Assembly (NCBI RefSeq): GCF_000300335.1
Contig: NZ_AMRM01000001.1
Span: 186,001 to 250,000 of the forward strand
DNA length: 64,000 nt
Direction: 5' to 3'
Source of the DNA: Nitratireductor pacificus pht-3B
GTDB taxonomy: Bacteria; Pseudomonadota; Alphaproteobacteria; Rhizobiales; Rhizobiaceae
Numbering within the stretch: position 1 is the first letter of the stretch; each line of letters starts with the position of its first letter. The notes beneath the pieces were generated by a model, which was given only the letters and a program-made list of their open reading frames with translations, did not search any database and was not told the origin of the DNA. This document shows, in pieces, positions 8,206 through 21,659 of this stretch. Made by a program: the position numbers and the translations under genes.

Positions 8206-9708
8206 ATGGCGCAGGCGCAGAACGGATTTGCCGACAGGGCCGAAGTGGTTGATGCCGCCATACGGCGCTCCGCCGTCGAGCGCGTTCGGACCTCCGGCCT
8301 TGTCCTGCCGACATTCGCCCAGCTTTCCGGCCAGGATCCGTTTCCTGCCCGCGCCCTCGAGCGGCTGGAGGGCGTCGATCCCGACAGTCCCGATCCGGCA
8401 AACCTGTGGCGCGTCCACTGGTTCAATGCCGCGGACCGGCGCAGCCGCACGGATGTTCCGGCGAGCGTGACGCTGCCGCCGGCCCTGACGGGCGTTGCCG
8501 CTCCGATCGTCGTGCTTCTCGGATCGCATTTCCCGATGATCGGCGCGCACAAGGTGCTGCCGGCCTATGCGGGGCTGGTCAGCCTGCTGGTGACGGGGCG
8601 CTTCGACCCGACGCATCATCGCGCCATCTGGCCGTCGACGGGCAATTACTGTCGCGGCGGCGTGGCGATCTCGCGCATCCTGGGCTGCGACGGCGTCGCC
8701 GTCCTGCCGGAGGGCATGAGCCGCGAGCGCTATGACTGGCTGGAGCGCTGGATTTCCGACCCGTCGCACATCGTGCGCACGGTCGGCACGGAGAGCAACG
8801 TCAAGGAAATCTACGACAAGTGCCATGAGCTGGCGCTGGACGAGAAGAACGTCATTCTCAACCAGTTCTCGGCCTTCTCCAACTACATGGCGCATCATGT
8901 GGTGACGGGAACGGCCTGCGCCGCGGTCTTCGCCGCGCTTCCGGGCAAGACCGATCGCACGCGGCTCGCCGCCTTCGTCTCGGCCACCGGCTCGGCCGGC
9001 ACCATCGCCGCCGGCGACCGGCTGAAGGCGCTGCACGGCACGCGCATCGCCGCCGTCGAGGCGCTGGAGTGCCCGACCATGCTGGAGAACGGCTATGGCG
9101 AGCACAACATCCAGGGCATCGGCGACAAGCACATCCCGCTGATCCACAACGTGATGAACACGGATTTCGTGATCGGCATCTCGGACCAGGTGACCGACCG
9201 GCTCAACCTGCTGTTCAGCTGCGAGGAGGGCAGGGCCGCGGTGCTGCGCCAGACCGGCCTCGACGCGGAGGCCATAGCGGCCTTCTCGGAGGTGGGCATC
9301 TCTGGCTTCGCCAACATCGCCGCGGCGATCAAGCTCGCCCGCCACATGAATTACGGCCCCGACGAGGTGGTGATGACCATCGCCACGGACAGCGCGCGCA
9401 TGTACGCGACCGAGGCCGAGGGCGCACGGCGCAAGTTCTTCCCCGACGGGTTCGGTGCCGCCGAGGCGGACCGGGTGTTCCTGAGCGATCTGGCCGGCCT
9501 GACGACGCAGCACGTACTCGAACTCGACCAGGGCGAGCGGCGGCGCATCTTCAACCTCGGCTACTACACATGGGTCGAGCAGCAGGGCGTCGACATCGAC
9601 GATTTCGACGCGCGCAAGGACCAGGCGTTCTGGGACGGCATCGCCGCCGACGCACCCGCCTGGGACCATCTGATCAACGAATTCAATGCCGAGGCCGGCT
9701 TGAACTGA
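8206..9708 (+). CDS. Fold-type II pyridoxal-phosphate-dependent enzyme, function unknown
   Basis: This 500-residue protein has the tryptophan-synthase-beta/cysteine-synthase fold. The PLP Schiff-base lysine is probably Lys116 in IGAHKVLPAYAG, the phosphate/carboxylate-binding segment is PSTGNYCRGG (143-152), and a glycine-rich loop SATGSAGTIAAGDRLK follows. It is longer than cysteine synthase (about 310 residues), with an N-terminal extension of roughly 90 residues and a long C-terminal part. By family chemistry it should catalyse a beta- or gamma-elimination or replacement on an amino acid, but I recognise no characterised subfamily. ATG 8206 is preferred over an upstream in-frame TTG (8191) because GGAG precedes it by nine bases. 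First gene of a five-gene operon containing an F420-dependent enzyme. Confidence 0.8.
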   Translation: MAQAQNGFADRAEVVDAAIRRSAVERVRTSGLVLPTFAQLSGQDPFPARALERLEGVDPDSPDPANLWRVHWFNAADRRSRTDVPASVTLPPALTGVAAPIVVLLGSHFPMIGAHKVLPAYAGLVSLLVTGRFDPTHHRAIWPSTGNYCRGGVAISRILGCDGVAVLPEGMSRERYDWLERWISDPSHIVRTVGTESNVKEIYDKCHELALDEKNVILNQFSAFSNYMAHHVVTGTACAAVFAALPGKTDRTRLAAFVSATGSAGTIAAGDRLKALHGTRIAAVEALECPTMLENGYGEHNIQGIGDKHIPLIHNVMNTDFVIGISDQVTDRLNLLFSCEEGRAAVLRQTGLDAEAIAAFSEVGISGFANIAAAIKLARHMNYGPDEVVMTIATDSARMYATEAEGARRKFFPDGFGAAEADRVFLSDLAGLTTQHVLELDQGERRRIFNLGYYTWVEQQGVDIDDFDARKDQAFWDGIAADAPAWDHLINEFNAEAGLN

Positions 9709-9747
9709 CACGTGGCGGTTTTCCGCCGGACGAAGAGGAGAGTGTTT

Positions 9748-19606: not shown

Positions 19607-20442
19607 AACCCGTCAATTTCGACTATGCGCGGCCGAAGGACGTGGCGGATGTGCTGCCGCTGATCGCCGACGACAGCCGCACCGTGAAGATCATGGCCGG
19701 CGGCCAGTCGCTGGGGCCGATGCTCAACATGCGGCTGGTGCAGCCCGACCTGGTGGTGGATATCACCGGCATCGAGGAACTGCGGCAGGTGGAGGAAACC
19801 GCCGACGCCATCATCATCGGCGGCTGCATCACCCATGCCGACATCGAGGACCGGCGCGTTCCGGACGTGACGCGCGGCGCATTGCCGGCGGTGGCGGGCG
19901 GCATCGCCTACCGGGCGGTGCGCAACCGCGGCACGATCGGCGGAAGCATCACCCATGCGGATCCCTCGGCCGACTGGATATCGATCCTGTCGGCGCTGGG
20001 CGCGACGGTGACGCTGCGAGGCCCGGGGGGGAGCCGCAGCGTCGCCGTCGAGGACTACATGCTGGGCGCGCTGGAAGCGGATCTCCAGCCGGGCGAAATG
20101 CTGGTCTCCGTGACGGTTCCCAAGCTCGGCGCTTCCGCCCGCTGGGGCTATTACAAGAGTTGCCGCAAGACCGGCGAGTTCGCCCACGCCATCGGCGCCT
20201 TCCTGGTCGATCCGGAGCGGGGCGTCAGCCGCGCCGTCTTCGGCGCGACGGAAAGCCGGCCGATCATCGTCCCCGACGCGCGACGGCTTCTGGGCGAGGG
20301 GGCGGCCAGGGGATCGAACGGCGATTTCGACAGCCGGCTGGCGGGAGAACTGGTCGAGGCCGGCGGCATGAGCGATCCGATCGATCGCCAGATTCACGTC
20401 GTCGCATTGCGGCGCGCCATTCAGCAGGCAGGTTCGGCATGA
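19603..20442 (+). CDS. Xanthine dehydrogenase family FAD-binding subunit (CoxM-like)
   Basis: This 279-residue FAD subunit relays electrons out of the molybdenum hydroxylase. The two FAD signatures are AGGQSLGPMLNMRL (about 32-45) and TIGGSITHADPSADW (about 111-125). The start is TTG 19603, embedded in the stop of the large-subunit gene (TTGA), with GGGAGAA just before it. Translational coupling of the subunits is therefore tight. Confidence 0.92.
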   Translation: MKPVNFDYARPKDVADVLPLIADDSRTVKIMAGGQSLGPMLNMRLVQPDLVVDITGIEELRQVEETADAIIIGGCITHADIEDRRVPDVTRGALPAVAGGIAYRAVRNRGTIGGSITHADPSADWISILSALGATVTLRGPGGSRSVAVEDYMLGALEADLQPGEMLVSVTVPKLGASARWGYYKSCRKTGEFAHAIGAFLVDPERGVSRAVFGATESRPIIVPDARRLLGEGAARGSNGDFDSRLAGELVEAGGMSDPIDRQIHVVALRRAIQQAGSA

Positions 20443-21659
20443 GCATGATCCATCTCACAATCAACGGGAAACCGGTCGATGCGGCCTGCGAGCCACGCAC
20501 CCATCTGGCGGATTTCCTGCGTGAAACGAACGACCTCACCGGCACGCATATCGGTTGCGAGCACGGCGTCTGCGGCGCCTGCACGATCCTGGTCGACGGC
20601 GTTCCGACCCGCTCCTGCATCACCTTCGCGGCGGCCTGCGAAGGGGCCGAGGTGACGACGGTCGAGGGGCTCGACGAAGACGAGATCGCCAGGGAACTCC
20701 GCGCCGCCTTCTCGAAGGAGCACGGGCTGCAATGCGGCTACTGCACGCCGGGCATGCTGGTTTCCGCGCGCGACGTGGTGCTGCGGATGGATGCGCCGAG
20801 CGAGCACGACATCCGCGTCATCATGAGCGGCAATCTGTGCCGCTGCACAGGTTATGTGGGCATTGTCCGGGCGATCCAGGGCGTCATCGCCGACCGGCGC
20901 GCGCGCGGCATCGCGGCGATTCCCGATGGCGGACGCTCGCGGCTCGGCCCGGCCGGGTCGGGCAATGCTTCGGCGGCGCGCGCCGCCGCCGGTTCGGCCA
21001 AACCGTCTGCCGCCCCCGTGGCGAAGGCTGCGAGCCAGCAGCCGCGCGCGGCCGCGCGCAAGGATGACAACTGGAAGCCGCAGACCACGTTCGAGCAAAG
21101 CTTCACCGTGGCGCATCCCGCCGATGTGGTGTGGGACTTCTTCGGCAGGGTCGACGAAGTCGCCGCCTGCCTGCCCGGAGCGTCGCTGAACGGGGCGCCC
21201 GAGGACGGCCATGTGGAAGGCCAGATCAAGGTCAAGGTCGGACCAATCTCCGCCGAATTCCACGGCGCTGCCGACATCACCCGGGACGAGGCGACCCGCA
21301 CCGGCACCATTGACGGGACGGGCAAGGACAAGCGCAGCAATTCGGCGACGCGGGGGCAGATCCGTTATGCGGTGAAGGAAGCCGATGCGCCGGGGCAAAC
21401 GCGCGTCGATCTTTCCATCGGCTTCACCCTGTCGGGGGTGCTGGCCCAGTTCAGCCGTTCGGGCCTCGTGCAGGATGTCGCCAACCGTCTGATCGGCGTG
21501 TTCGTCCAGAACCTGGAGGCCAGGCTCACGCACCAGGCGGATGGCGGCAGTGCCGATTCCGCTCCGGTGGCCGCCGAGTTCAATGCCGGGTCGCTGATGT
21601 CTTCGGTCATCATCGGCCAGTTCAAACAGCTTTTCGCGCGGCTCTTCCGGCGGAAATAG
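20439..21659 (+). CDS. 2Fe-2S subunit of molybdenum hydroxylase fused to a CoxG/SRPBCC domain
   Basis: This 406-residue protein has two parts. Residues 1-165 are a CoxS-type ferredoxin with the plant-type cluster motif CEHGVCGACTILVDG and the second cluster motif CGYCTPG ... CRCTGY. A low-complexity Ala/Pro/Ser linker (about 170-205) follows. Residues about 210-406 are a CoxG-like SRPBCC domain (FTVAHPADVVWDFFGRVDEV, CLPGASL, KVGPISAEFHGAA) ending in a basic amphipathic tail. Free CoxS is about 165 residues, so this is a fusion. In carboxydotrophs separate CoxG is linked to membrane attachment of the enzyme, and recent work implicates it in quinone delivery; the fusion may tether this hydroxylase at the membrane (inference). 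ATG 20439 overlaps the FAD-subunit stop. Confidence 0.87.
   Translation: MSMIHLTINGKPVDAACEPRTHLADFLRETNDLTGTHIGCEHGVCGACTILVDGVPTRSCITFAAACEGAEVTTVEGLDEDEIARELRAAFSKEHGLQCGYCTPGMLVSARDVVLRMDAPSEHDIRVIMSGNLCRCTGYVGIVRAIQGVIADRRARGIAAIPDGGRSRLGPAGSGNASAARAAAGSAKPSAAPVAKAASQQPRAAARKDDNWKPQTTFEQSFTVAHPADVVWDFFGRVDEVAACLPGASLNGAPEDGHVEGQIKVKVGPISAEFHGAADITRDEATRTGTIDGTGKDKRSNSATRGQIRYAVKEADAPGQTRVDLSIGFTLSGVLAQFSRSGLVQDVANRLIGVFVQNLEARLTHQADGGSADSAPVAAEFNAGSLMSSVIIGQFKQLFARLFRRK

Follow-up and report, generated by a model that had tools for sequence, protein, structure and literature searches.

The stretch of DNA considered here (the window, 64,000 nucleotides; G000:C1:186001-250000) is part of the 4.47-Mb assembly (51 contigs) of Nitratireductor pacificus pht-3B, and it holds a genuine, conserved and operator-defined gene island that is built around a probable F420-dependent reductase of the LLM family. 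Genes were called from their reading frames and third-position GC content, and their translations were matched to Pfam and NCBIfam; the genes named below combine a high third-position GC content with clear family matches. On the plus strand, the order is livM, livG, livF, npdG, cofE, cofD, cofC, fbiC, the gene for a pyridoxal phosphate (PLP) enzyme, the genes for subunits A and B of a CoA-transferase, and the LLM gene, followed by a gene for an M20-family protein, pntA, pntA2, pntB, the genes for the large (L), FAD-binding (M) and small (S, fused to a CoxG domain) subunits of a molybdenum (Mo) hydroxylase, and a GntR-type regulatory gene. Downstream of the latter lie a diaminopropionate ammonia-lyase (DAPAL) gene on the minus strand, an Lrp-type gene on the plus strand and, again on the minus strand, the gene for a HAAT-type binding protein.

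The first three genes encode a HAAT-type ABC transporter (14-2224, plus strand; livM at 14-721, livG at about 721-1512, livF at 1499-2224), with livH situated directly upstream of the window (locus L054). They are followed on the same strand by five F420 genes, each of which scores above its curated cut-off: npdG/fno for an NADPH-dependent F420 reductase (2463-3128; TIGR01915, 179.5 bits, cut-off 149.8), cofE for F420-0:glutamate ligase (3133-3897; TIGR01916, 281.6 bits, cut-off 180.65), cofD of the 2-phospho-L-lactate transferase family (3894-4889; TIGR01819, 290.8 bits, cut-off 257.45), cofC of the 2-phospho-L-lactate guanylyltransferase family (4886-5572; TIGR03552, 154.6 bits, cut-off 105), and fbiC, a CofGH fusion coding for FO synthase (5569-7989; NF006687, 1157.2 bits, cut-off 1018). 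The pnt genes (14125-17032, plus strand; pntA at 14125-15267, pntA2 at 15336-15647, pntB at 15644-17032) encode a proton-driven transhydrogenase leading from NADH to NADPH, and their homologues are annotated as transhydrogenase in CP130049. Two regulatory genes are present on the plus strand: one for a GntR-UTRA (HutC-like) protein (21764-22651, likely start at 21875; PF00392 and PF07702), and one for an Lrp/AsnC protein (24033-24533) that is divergent from the DAPAL gene and whose product has the PRK11169 Lrp model as its best match (81.1 bits, below the cut-off of 233). The HAAT periplasmic binding protein (PF13458) is encoded at 24626-25780 on the minus strand.

A palindrome, TACTA-N4-TAGTA, is common to the intergenic stretches of the island. 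It is found in its exact form before npdG (2362-2375), the PLP gene (8137-8150) and the binding-protein gene (25896-25909), and with two mismatches before pntA (14022-14035) and the Mo-hydroxylase genes (17120-17133). When up to two mismatches are allowed, the window contains six sites versus 0.39 expected, a number that was reached in none of 100 shuffles; the sixth site, at 44809, is probably due to chance. The whole assembly possesses three exact sites, all of them inside the cluster, and three one-mismatch sites elsewhere. The original prediction, framed for positions 8206-21659, had placed a Mo-hydroxylase, an LLM oxidoreductase, an M20 hydrolase, a PLP lyase-like enzyme, a glutaconate-type CoA-transferase and a HAAT-type binding protein under one shared operator; all of these are indeed present and correctly named, with the binding-protein gene lying outside that range, and the list had passed over pntA/pntA2/pntB, the F420 genes (2463-7989; fbiC appeared only as a proposed test target), and the GntR, DAPAL and Lrp genes.

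An alignment-based scan for the LLM protein in 84,980 species genomes revealed 267 relatives, the best 80 of which were kept as named loci; these loci were thus chosen by their LLM gene, and many of them are cut by contig ends. Their hosts belong to Bradyrhizobium, Afipia, Kaistia, Labrys, Aminobacter, Phyllobacterium, Methyloligella, Azospirillum, Cupriavidus, Pusillimonas, the Nitrospinota and other groups, and the nearest named island-bearing relative is Nitratireductor soli ZZ-1, the LLM protein of which is 94% identical. Family names in the loci stand for similarity clusters, and one representative each of pxpA, pxpB, pxpC, sdaA, dihydroorotase, accC, accD and the HyuA-HyuB type was checked against profiles: those of pxpA, pxpB, sdaA, dihydroorotase and accC (as biotin carboxylase subfamily) exceed curated cut-offs, that of pxpC passes the broader 5-oxoprolinase/urea amidolyase domain cut-off, and those of accD and the HyuA-HyuB type (nearest to caprolactamase) fall below theirs. 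LLM itself was recovered in 79 of the 80 loci (gene calling missed one), CoA-transferase subunit B in 75, subunit A in 74, PLP in 54, any F420 gene in 47, any Mo subunit in 39 and M20 in 36; the numbers then fall to 18 for pxpA, 13 each for DAPAL, sdaA and pntA, four for accC, three for a fused HyuA-HyuB type and one for dihydroorotase. The variation in composition is partly caused by cut contigs and flanks. The most constant block is formed by the two CoA-transferase genes and LLM, and it persists in loci in which Mo, M20 or transport genes were not seen. This gene set is far more than an assembly of chance neighbours. The original prediction is borne out in its notion of one co-regulated catabolic unit that includes a step dependent on F420H2, and the neighbourhood is conserved far outside the strain in which it was first noticed.

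Two additional gene families of these loci deserve mention. L-serine ammonia-lyase genes (sdaA; L081, L083-L086, L088, L090, L092, L094, L095, L103, L104 and L124) are located directly behind LLM in 11 of the 13 loci, with a representative that scores 659.7 bits at an equivalog cut-off of 345.1; twelve of the 13 loci also contain PLP, and the thirteenth, L088, begins at a contig end. In four betaproteobacterial loci from Cupriavidus, Pusillimonas and Burkholderiaceae PBA (L111, L113, L115, L119), the acyl-CoA carboxylase-like genes accD and accC stand directly after LLM and before pntAB, the accD product being mmdA-like (430.6 bits, below the cut-off).

Across the 80 named loci, 94 operator sites with at most one mismatch are spread over 54 loci, and 86 of them precede a cluster-family gene by no more than 250 bp: PLP (26), npdG (16), pxpA (14), the CoA-transferase (9), the binding protein (6), Mo subunit L (4), a urea amidolyase-associated protein (3), DAPAL and M20 (2 each), and Mo subunit M, GntR, dihydroorotase and pxpB (1 each). 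Everted and permuted control patterns yielded eight and three sites, respectively; a reversed-letter control also yielded 94, only 24 of which lie upstream of cluster-family genes, 14 of these at one family. Over 87 stretches, 105 operator sites compare with 9.0 in mononucleotide shuffles, and among 18 named genomes, 14 possess the exact operator (20 sites in total), control patterns being matched 3 to 27 times in each genome. One exact site in these other genomes (L154) adjoins no recognised island gene. In Pseudohoeflea (L056), a one-mismatch site separates a dihydroorotase gene from that of the binding protein, and in Afipia massiliensis an exact site stands between pxpB/pxpC and GntR/Mo subunit L. 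The sites before pxpA, pxpB, DAPAL, the urea amidolyase-associated protein and dihydroorotase hence link these genes to the island not through position alone but also through their regulation. One operator probably controls the transport, cofactor and catabolic genes, and it is probably read by the GntR protein, our candidate for the operator binder.

The urea amidolyase-associated protein gene adjoins PLP in L073, L122, L127 and L128 (representative 239.4 bits, below the cut-off of 284.7); L122 and L128 have the operator between these neighbours, and in L073 it precedes the pair.

The LLM protein (11510-12472, plus strand) passes the F420-family model TIGR03619 (207.8 bits, cut-off 166.9) and is not an FGD (TIGR03554, 73.4 bits, cut-off 420). 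Its predicted structure, with a mean predicted local distance difference test (pLDDT) score of 93.4, is closest to members of the luciferase superfamily; since these neighbours comprise both flavin monooxygenases and F420 enzymes (Mer, FGD), the fold leaves the cofactor undecided. Family membership and co-occurrence suggest that the LLM protein probably uses F420. The five F420 genes stand beside it, and of three PF00296 matches in the genome, the island protein alone exceeds the cut-off of an F420 family (in the case of the two others, the scan covered the matched stretches). In a class sample of 385 genomes, in which LLM was counted at an E value of 1e-60 or better and FbiC above its cut-off, FbiC is present in all six LLM genomes versus 55 of the 385 overall; with the window's own genome set aside, it is present in five of five (p 4.7e-5). 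The tie to F420 is looser for the PLP protein, with seven of 12 genomes carrying it.

A small nitroreductase-like gene is found near transporter or LLM genes in L088 (7770-8474), L092, L095, L098 and L117; its product matches the FbiB C-terminal domain (118.6 bits, below the cut-off), and it is possibly an extra F420 maturation enzyme.

Both subunits of the CoA-transferase (A, 9712-10713; B, 10706-11476; plus strand) are nearest to the glutaconate CoA-transferase GctAB among solved structures (1poi_A, E 1.2e-40; 1poi_B, E 1.2e-47). The FEGG motif of subunit B aligns with VESG of 1poi_B, whose glutamate we take to be the catalytic one; judged by sequence, the enzyme is of the glutaconate type, with GctAB as its nearest relative and the position of the catalytic glutamate kept. 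An acetamidase/formamidase-like gene (83.2 bits with the FmdA model, below the cut-off) adjoins the CoA-transferase genes in L060-L063 and lies a few kb away in L071; it might hint at the release of formamide or an amide.

The Mo-hydroxylase consists of a large subunit (17207-19606) with quinoline 2-oxidoreductase (1t3q_B, 478.5 bits) as best solved match, a FAD subunit (19603-20442; PF00941), and a 2Fe-2S subunit fused to a CoxG domain (20439-21659; PF01799 and PF06240), all encoded on the plus strand. An assignment to form I CO dehydrogenase was rejected: the large subunit scores 469.2 bits with TIGR02416, below the cut-off of 991.15, and it carries PYRGVAR in place of AYxCSFR, presumably the active-site loop of that enzyme. 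The M20 protein (12521-13819, plus strand) is an ArgE/DapE-family deacylase (TIGR01910, 275.7 bits, cut-off 217.6) that possesses the motifs GHTD, DMKSG and DEE.

The PLP enzyme (8206-9708, plus strand; PF00291) is a fold-type II protein of about 500 amino acids with a CBS/OASS-like core and extra N- and C-terminal parts. The lysine of its AHK motif and the STGN loop are invariant across 37 aligned sequences, and the core of its predicted structure (pLDDT 89.0) is nearest to cystathionine beta-synthase, cysteine synthase and beta-cyanoalanine synthase, with a TM-score of about 0.75 (by target length). The protein shares the fold of cysteine synthase and cystathionine beta-synthase and scores at best 71.8 bits with their models, below a cut-off of 350.95. 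The gene also occurs in other contexts without a nearby LLM gene: it adjoins an agmatinase-like gene (below the cut-off) in L043, EutB- and EutC-like genes in L048, and M20 and sulfite exporter genes in L051, and on a plasmid of Bosea vaviloviae (L052, 18001-27000) it is accompanied by genes for gamma-glutamyltransferase, RidA, M20 and a sulfite exporter. The PLP enzyme is a probable beta-lyase, and these neighbourhoods suit a lyase that acts on beta-substituted alanines; the Bosea locus looks like a separate route for gamma-glutamyl derivatives of such amino acids. A ureido-related gene seen by eye beside PLP in L043 had no NCBIfam match and was dropped. The Bosea locus also contains an unannotated stretch for a diaminopropionate ammonia-lyase with 45% identity to that of the window.

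The DAPAL protein of the window (22745-23938, minus strand) passes NF006058 (513 bits, cut-off 276) and TIGR01747, matches E. coli YgeX (4d9g) with 249.1 bits, and keeps the lysine and the two aspartate positions that we take to be catalytic in YgeX. Whole-genome searches were carried out in 25 island-bearing genomes (from 26 of the 80 loci); these genomes are related, so that a ratio of observed to expected is meaningful and a p-value is not. DAPAL was detected in 23 of them; it is located on the LLM contig within 26.5 kb in 19 of 25, versus 0.28 expected under random placement, and at 26.7, 42.9 and 62.5 kb from LLM in three more. Wider flanks place DAPAL past 10 kb in Kaistia, Labrys, Aminobacter, Phyllobacterium and Afipia massiliensis, and counts within 10 kb therefore understate it. 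For this reason we discarded an anticorrelation of PLP and DAPAL (Fisher p 4.4e-4, 48 loci over 19 kb), as DAPAL lies just past 10 kb in several loci that seemed to lack it, as well as associations of M20 with Mo (p 6.1e-6) and with DAPAL; the same caveat of narrow flanks applies to the rare joint occurrence of M20 and sdaA, which meet in one of the 48 loci.

Because DAPAL recurs beside LLM and matches YgeX, the late intermediate is likely to be 2,3-diaminopropionate, a beta-substituted C3 amino acid on its way to pyruvate. The dicarboxylate product contained in the original prediction is less likely, given the position of DAPAL near LLM in so many genomes. On chemical grounds, 2,3-diaminopropionate results directly when the alpha and beta carbons of a ring carboxylate each bear a nitrogen, and among simple acids imidazole-4-carboxylate and pyrazine-2-carboxylate are the candidate substrates that fit best. 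An intermediate of the ureido type (albizziin) was dropped for the imidazole substrate: a two-nitrogen cyclic urea would be opened to a carbamate and give diaminopropionate and CO2, with no ureido acid in between.

The genes that might open such a ring differ between loci. PxpA is found within 26.5 kb of LLM in 12 of the 25 genomes, versus 0.25 expected, and its family is absent from 10 of the 25; genes for PxpA, HyuA-HyuB-type and dihydroorotase-type proteins occupy the same neighbourhood in different loci. These families act on cyclic amides or imides, and 5-oxoprolinase binds 2-imidazolidone-4-carboxylate. Ring opening is probably brought about by interchangeable hydrolases of lactams or cyclic amides (PxpABC, HyuA-HyuB-type or dihydroorotase-type enzymes). 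PF04075 has no match in the window's own genome and none in the control genomes either, so that its absence carries no weight.

Our favoured reading, to which we grant somewhat less than an even chance, is that of a substrate-induced, F420-dependent reductive catabolic island that converts an N-heteroaromatic acid to pyruvate and ammonia. The HAAT transporter would take up a carboxylate of the N-heteroaromatic kind that contains N-C=C(COOH)-N, the Mo-hydroxylase would, as its family does, place an oxo group beside a ring nitrogen, and the CoA-transferase would form the CoA thioester of the ring acid. LLM would then use F420H2 as hydride donor to reduce the ring at the position beta to the thioester, with loss of aromaticity, and CoA would be recycled by the transferase. 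Activation probably precedes reduction, since the CoA-transferase genes and LLM form the most constant block, which speaks against the original prediction of CoA activation as the last step; the other steps foreseen there, namely hydroxylation, F420H2-dependent reduction, ring opening and elimination, fit the enlarged gene set. Held as a thioester, the ring carboxylate would make the beta carbon a good hydride acceptor, and this suits F420H2. The cofactor would be made by the products of the island genes and reduced, through the enzymes whose genes are present, in the sequence NADH, PntAB, NADPH and NpdG. Depending on lineage, PxpABC, a HyuA-HyuB-type or a dihydroorotase-type hydrolase, and/or the M20 protein, would open the ring to 2,3-diaminopropionate, which the ammonia-lyase would convert to pyruvate and two ammonia; the PLP enzyme, together with the L-serine ammonia-lyase in some lineages, may provide a second beta-elimination route to pyruvate. 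More tentative still is the narrower proposal of a self-contained F420 regulon, in which the cofactor is made in order to dearomatise a single class of N-heteroaromatic acid as its CoA thioester and to release 2,3-diaminopropionate.

Several points weigh against this interpretation. The reactions are inferred, and the choice of F420 over FMN for LLM rests on family and co-occurrence. Only six of the 55 FbiC genomes in the class sample possess LLM, which means that other uses of F420 exist in the class and rules out that F420 in Alphaproteobacteria generally serves this island. DAPAL falls below the curated cut-off of TIGR03528, is absent from two of the 25 genomes searched as a whole, and is seen within 10 kb of LLM in only 13 of the 80 loci. 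The genome of N. pacificus has no match to PxpA (PF03746), and the one pyrC_dimer-type dihydroorotase that it encodes is located on another contig (C43, 3.8 kb) and may be either a biosynthetic or an island enzyme; the ring opener of this genome is therefore uncertain and may be the M20 protein or this dihydroorotase. The role of the M20 protein itself depends on the substrate, as a deacylation is needed for the pyrazine route and not for the imidazole route. Finally, the L-serine ammonia-lyase (13 of 80 loci) and the acyl-CoA carboxylase (4 of 80) are left unaccounted for by the proposed pathway.

The alternative that survives best, which we nevertheless consider unlikely, is a pathway for a pyridine carboxylate (nicotinate, picolinate, homarine or trigonelline), an idea close to that of the original prediction and to the anaerobic nicotinate pathway of Eubacterium barkeri. 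Mo-hydroxylation would lead to a pyridone and reduction by F420H2 to the tetrahydro-oxo acid; after lactam hydrolysis, an acid of the glutarate or glutaconate type would receive CoA. The affinity of the Mo subunit to quinoline 2-oxidoreductase and of the CoA-transferase to glutaconate CoA-transferase, as well as the lactam hydrolases in the regulon, are what one would expect of such a route, but it gives no role to the DAPAL that lies no more than 26.5 kb from LLM in 19 of the 25 genomes, nor to the L-serine ammonia-lyase. A literature search found no paper that joins homarine and F420, and among the matches listed, no title or beginning of an abstract describes an F420 pathway for nicotinate, hydroxypicolinic acid, trigonelline or homarine; we accordingly gave up homarine or trigonelline as the sole favoured substrate and keep both under this heading. 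Compared by description, the E. barkeri pathway resembles the island in Mo-hydroxylation next to the ring nitrogen, reduction of the oxo acid and hydrolysis of a cyclic amide, whereas its reductase is not known to be an F420-dependent LLM enzyme, and the island has a CoA-transferase and a diaminopropionate ammonia-lyase for the later steps. Likewise compared by description, isonicotinate degradation in Mycobacterium, which runs via citrazinyl-CoA, shares with the proposed route the Mo-hydroxylation, the CoA activation of the ring carboxylate and the reduction of the ring as a thioester, and differs in substrate, type of reductase and later steps.

Two further explanations appear improbable to a similar degree. 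Pyrrole-2-carboxylate could be hydroxylated by the Mo-enzyme at C5, activated with CoA and reduced by F420H2 to 5-oxoproline, from which 5-oxoprolinase would form glutamate. That 14 operator sites have pxpA as their closest downstream gene, and that a second kind of lactamase (the fused HyuA-HyuB protein, nearest to caprolactamase, below the cut-off) is present in three of the 80 loci, would be in keeping with this idea; however, PxpA is missing from the window's genome and from 10 of the 25 island genomes, and DAPAL, M20 and dihydroorotase are left unexplained. Alternatively, the island might be a patchwork of separate F420, Mo-hydroxylase and amino-acid deaminase units that share a regulator and form no single pathway. 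The uneven presence of Mo, M20 and PLP in 39, 36 and 54 of the 80 loci, and of PLP without a nearby LLM gene in L043, L047, L048, L051 and L052, could be taken in this sense, were it not that some of the variation reflects cut contigs and flanks and that the operator, common to 54 of the 80 loci, stands ahead of transport, cofactor and catabolic genes alike.

A characterised parallel to the diaminopropionate route that we favour is the reductive uric acid pathway of E. coli and Clostridioides difficile (XdhD, YgfK/UacX, SsnA, HyuA, YgeW/UacY, YgeY, YgeX), in which (PMC12507026, with a comment in PMC12990295) a Mo-enzyme, reductive dearomatisation, ring hydrolases, the M20 protein YgeY and YgeX lead via diaminopropionate to pyruvate. 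Nine E. coli K-12 proteins were compared with a total of 100 stretches, made up of the window, the 80 loci and a further 19 from island genomes. YgeX matches 24 of them at an E value of 1e-10, YgeY matches 34 weakly (best 75.5 bits, 24% identity), XdhD matches 46 (best 206 bits, 25% identity), and SsnA, HyuA, YgeW, YqeA, YgfK and YgfM match none of the 100 stretches at that threshold. The island, as proposed here, has in common with this pathway an enzyme of the Mo-hydroxylase family, reductive dearomatisation, ring hydrolysis, an M20 protein, 2,3-diaminopropionate and a YgeX-type lyase; it differs in its operator-linked set of CoA-transferase, PLP, PntAB, HAAT transporter and F420 synthesis genes, and its substrate is probably a monocyclic acid. 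With no SsnA, HyuA or YgfK beside it, an M20 protein that fails as a YgeY equivalog (NF009555, 129.6 bits, cut-off 321), and its own CoA-transferase, F420 genes and operator, the island works like the E. coli pathway and is not a member of it. Many of its hosts are, by genus, aerobic soil or marine Proteobacteria. That it nonetheless represents an aerobic, F420-dependent form of the purine pathway, in which LLM would reduce a dioxopurine on the way to ureido-propionates and 2,3-diaminopropionate, is the least probable reading, in spite of the same end game (M20, DAPAL, pyruvate), the Mo-enzyme, a Prokka name of 'caffeine dehydrogenase' for the S. meliloti Mo subunit (PMC8407117) and a putative F420-dependent PF00296 protein in SsnA clusters of Chloroflexota, for which an F420 variant of reductive purine degradation has been suggested (PMC12507026): it would call for two ring hydrolases and two ureido-cleaving steps and leaves the CoA-transferase without a role, the M20 protein is no YgeY equivalog, and the absence of SsnA, HyuA, YgeW and YgfK from the stretches lowered further what was already a low estimate.

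The claim of the original prediction that no pathway with this gene set had been described stands insofar as our literature search, which did not extend to most subscription journals and preprints, found among the matches listed no paper that describes the island as a pathway; it needs to be qualified by the Chloroflexota proposal and by a genome-wide association study on nodule competitiveness in Sinorhizobium meliloti. In the accessible text of the latter (PMC8407117), the top k-mers fall into a 26-kb region of pSymA that, of the strains compared, only GR4, KH35c and KH46 possess, and the tagged functions include F420, LivF, PyrC, M20, DAPAL, PntAB, GctAB, LLM, GntR and 'caffeine dehydrogenase'; the result is an association obtained with 13 tested strains and no trial of the genes themselves, the genes are listed as separate hits, and that text proposes no pathway, substrate or regulon for them. 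The island of S. meliloti GR4 (5305-31750 of locus L171, 26.4 kb) matches each searched window protein except PLP and Lrp, and by gene content and length it corresponds to the published pSymA region of the three strains. S. meliloti R28 and S. fredii SMH12 carry the island on symbiotic plasmids, where it lacks PLP and is preceded by a dihydroorotase-like gene, and LLM is carried by 12 plasmid records, every one of them from Sinorhizobium.

Actinobacteria and methanogens possess F420H2-dependent LLM reductases (FGD, Mer, TIGR03619 family) that agree with the island protein in family and fold; the island protein differs from them in being encoded within a catabolic operon, together with genes for the synthesis of its cofactor. 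According to PMC8498797, such reductases had not been studied in F420 producers other than actinobacteria, and the island, a concrete and deletable gene set with its own operator, offers a testable job for F420 outside the groups studied so far. If the narrower regulon proposal is correct, the Alpha- and Betaproteobacteria would, to our knowledge, have their first assigned job for F420, the dearomatisation of an aryl-CoA with F420H2 would be an activity new among enzymes, and in rhizobia the island would be a nutritional trait with a part in deciding which strain wins the nodule. The island, shared by soil, plant-nodule and marine bacteria, would also take the reductive cleavage of rings to diaminopropionate past gut purine metabolism, and it would give a metabolic reading to the 26-kb region tied by association to nodule competitiveness in S. 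meliloti (PMC8407117).

Elsewhere in the window, the stretches 41184-45722 (minus strand) and 56801-59599 (plus strand) contain genes of the sarcosine oxidase alpha and beta families and one for a third, related large protein; the latter passes none of the cut-offs shown, and the former two exceed theirs with 1405.9 and 726.1 bits.

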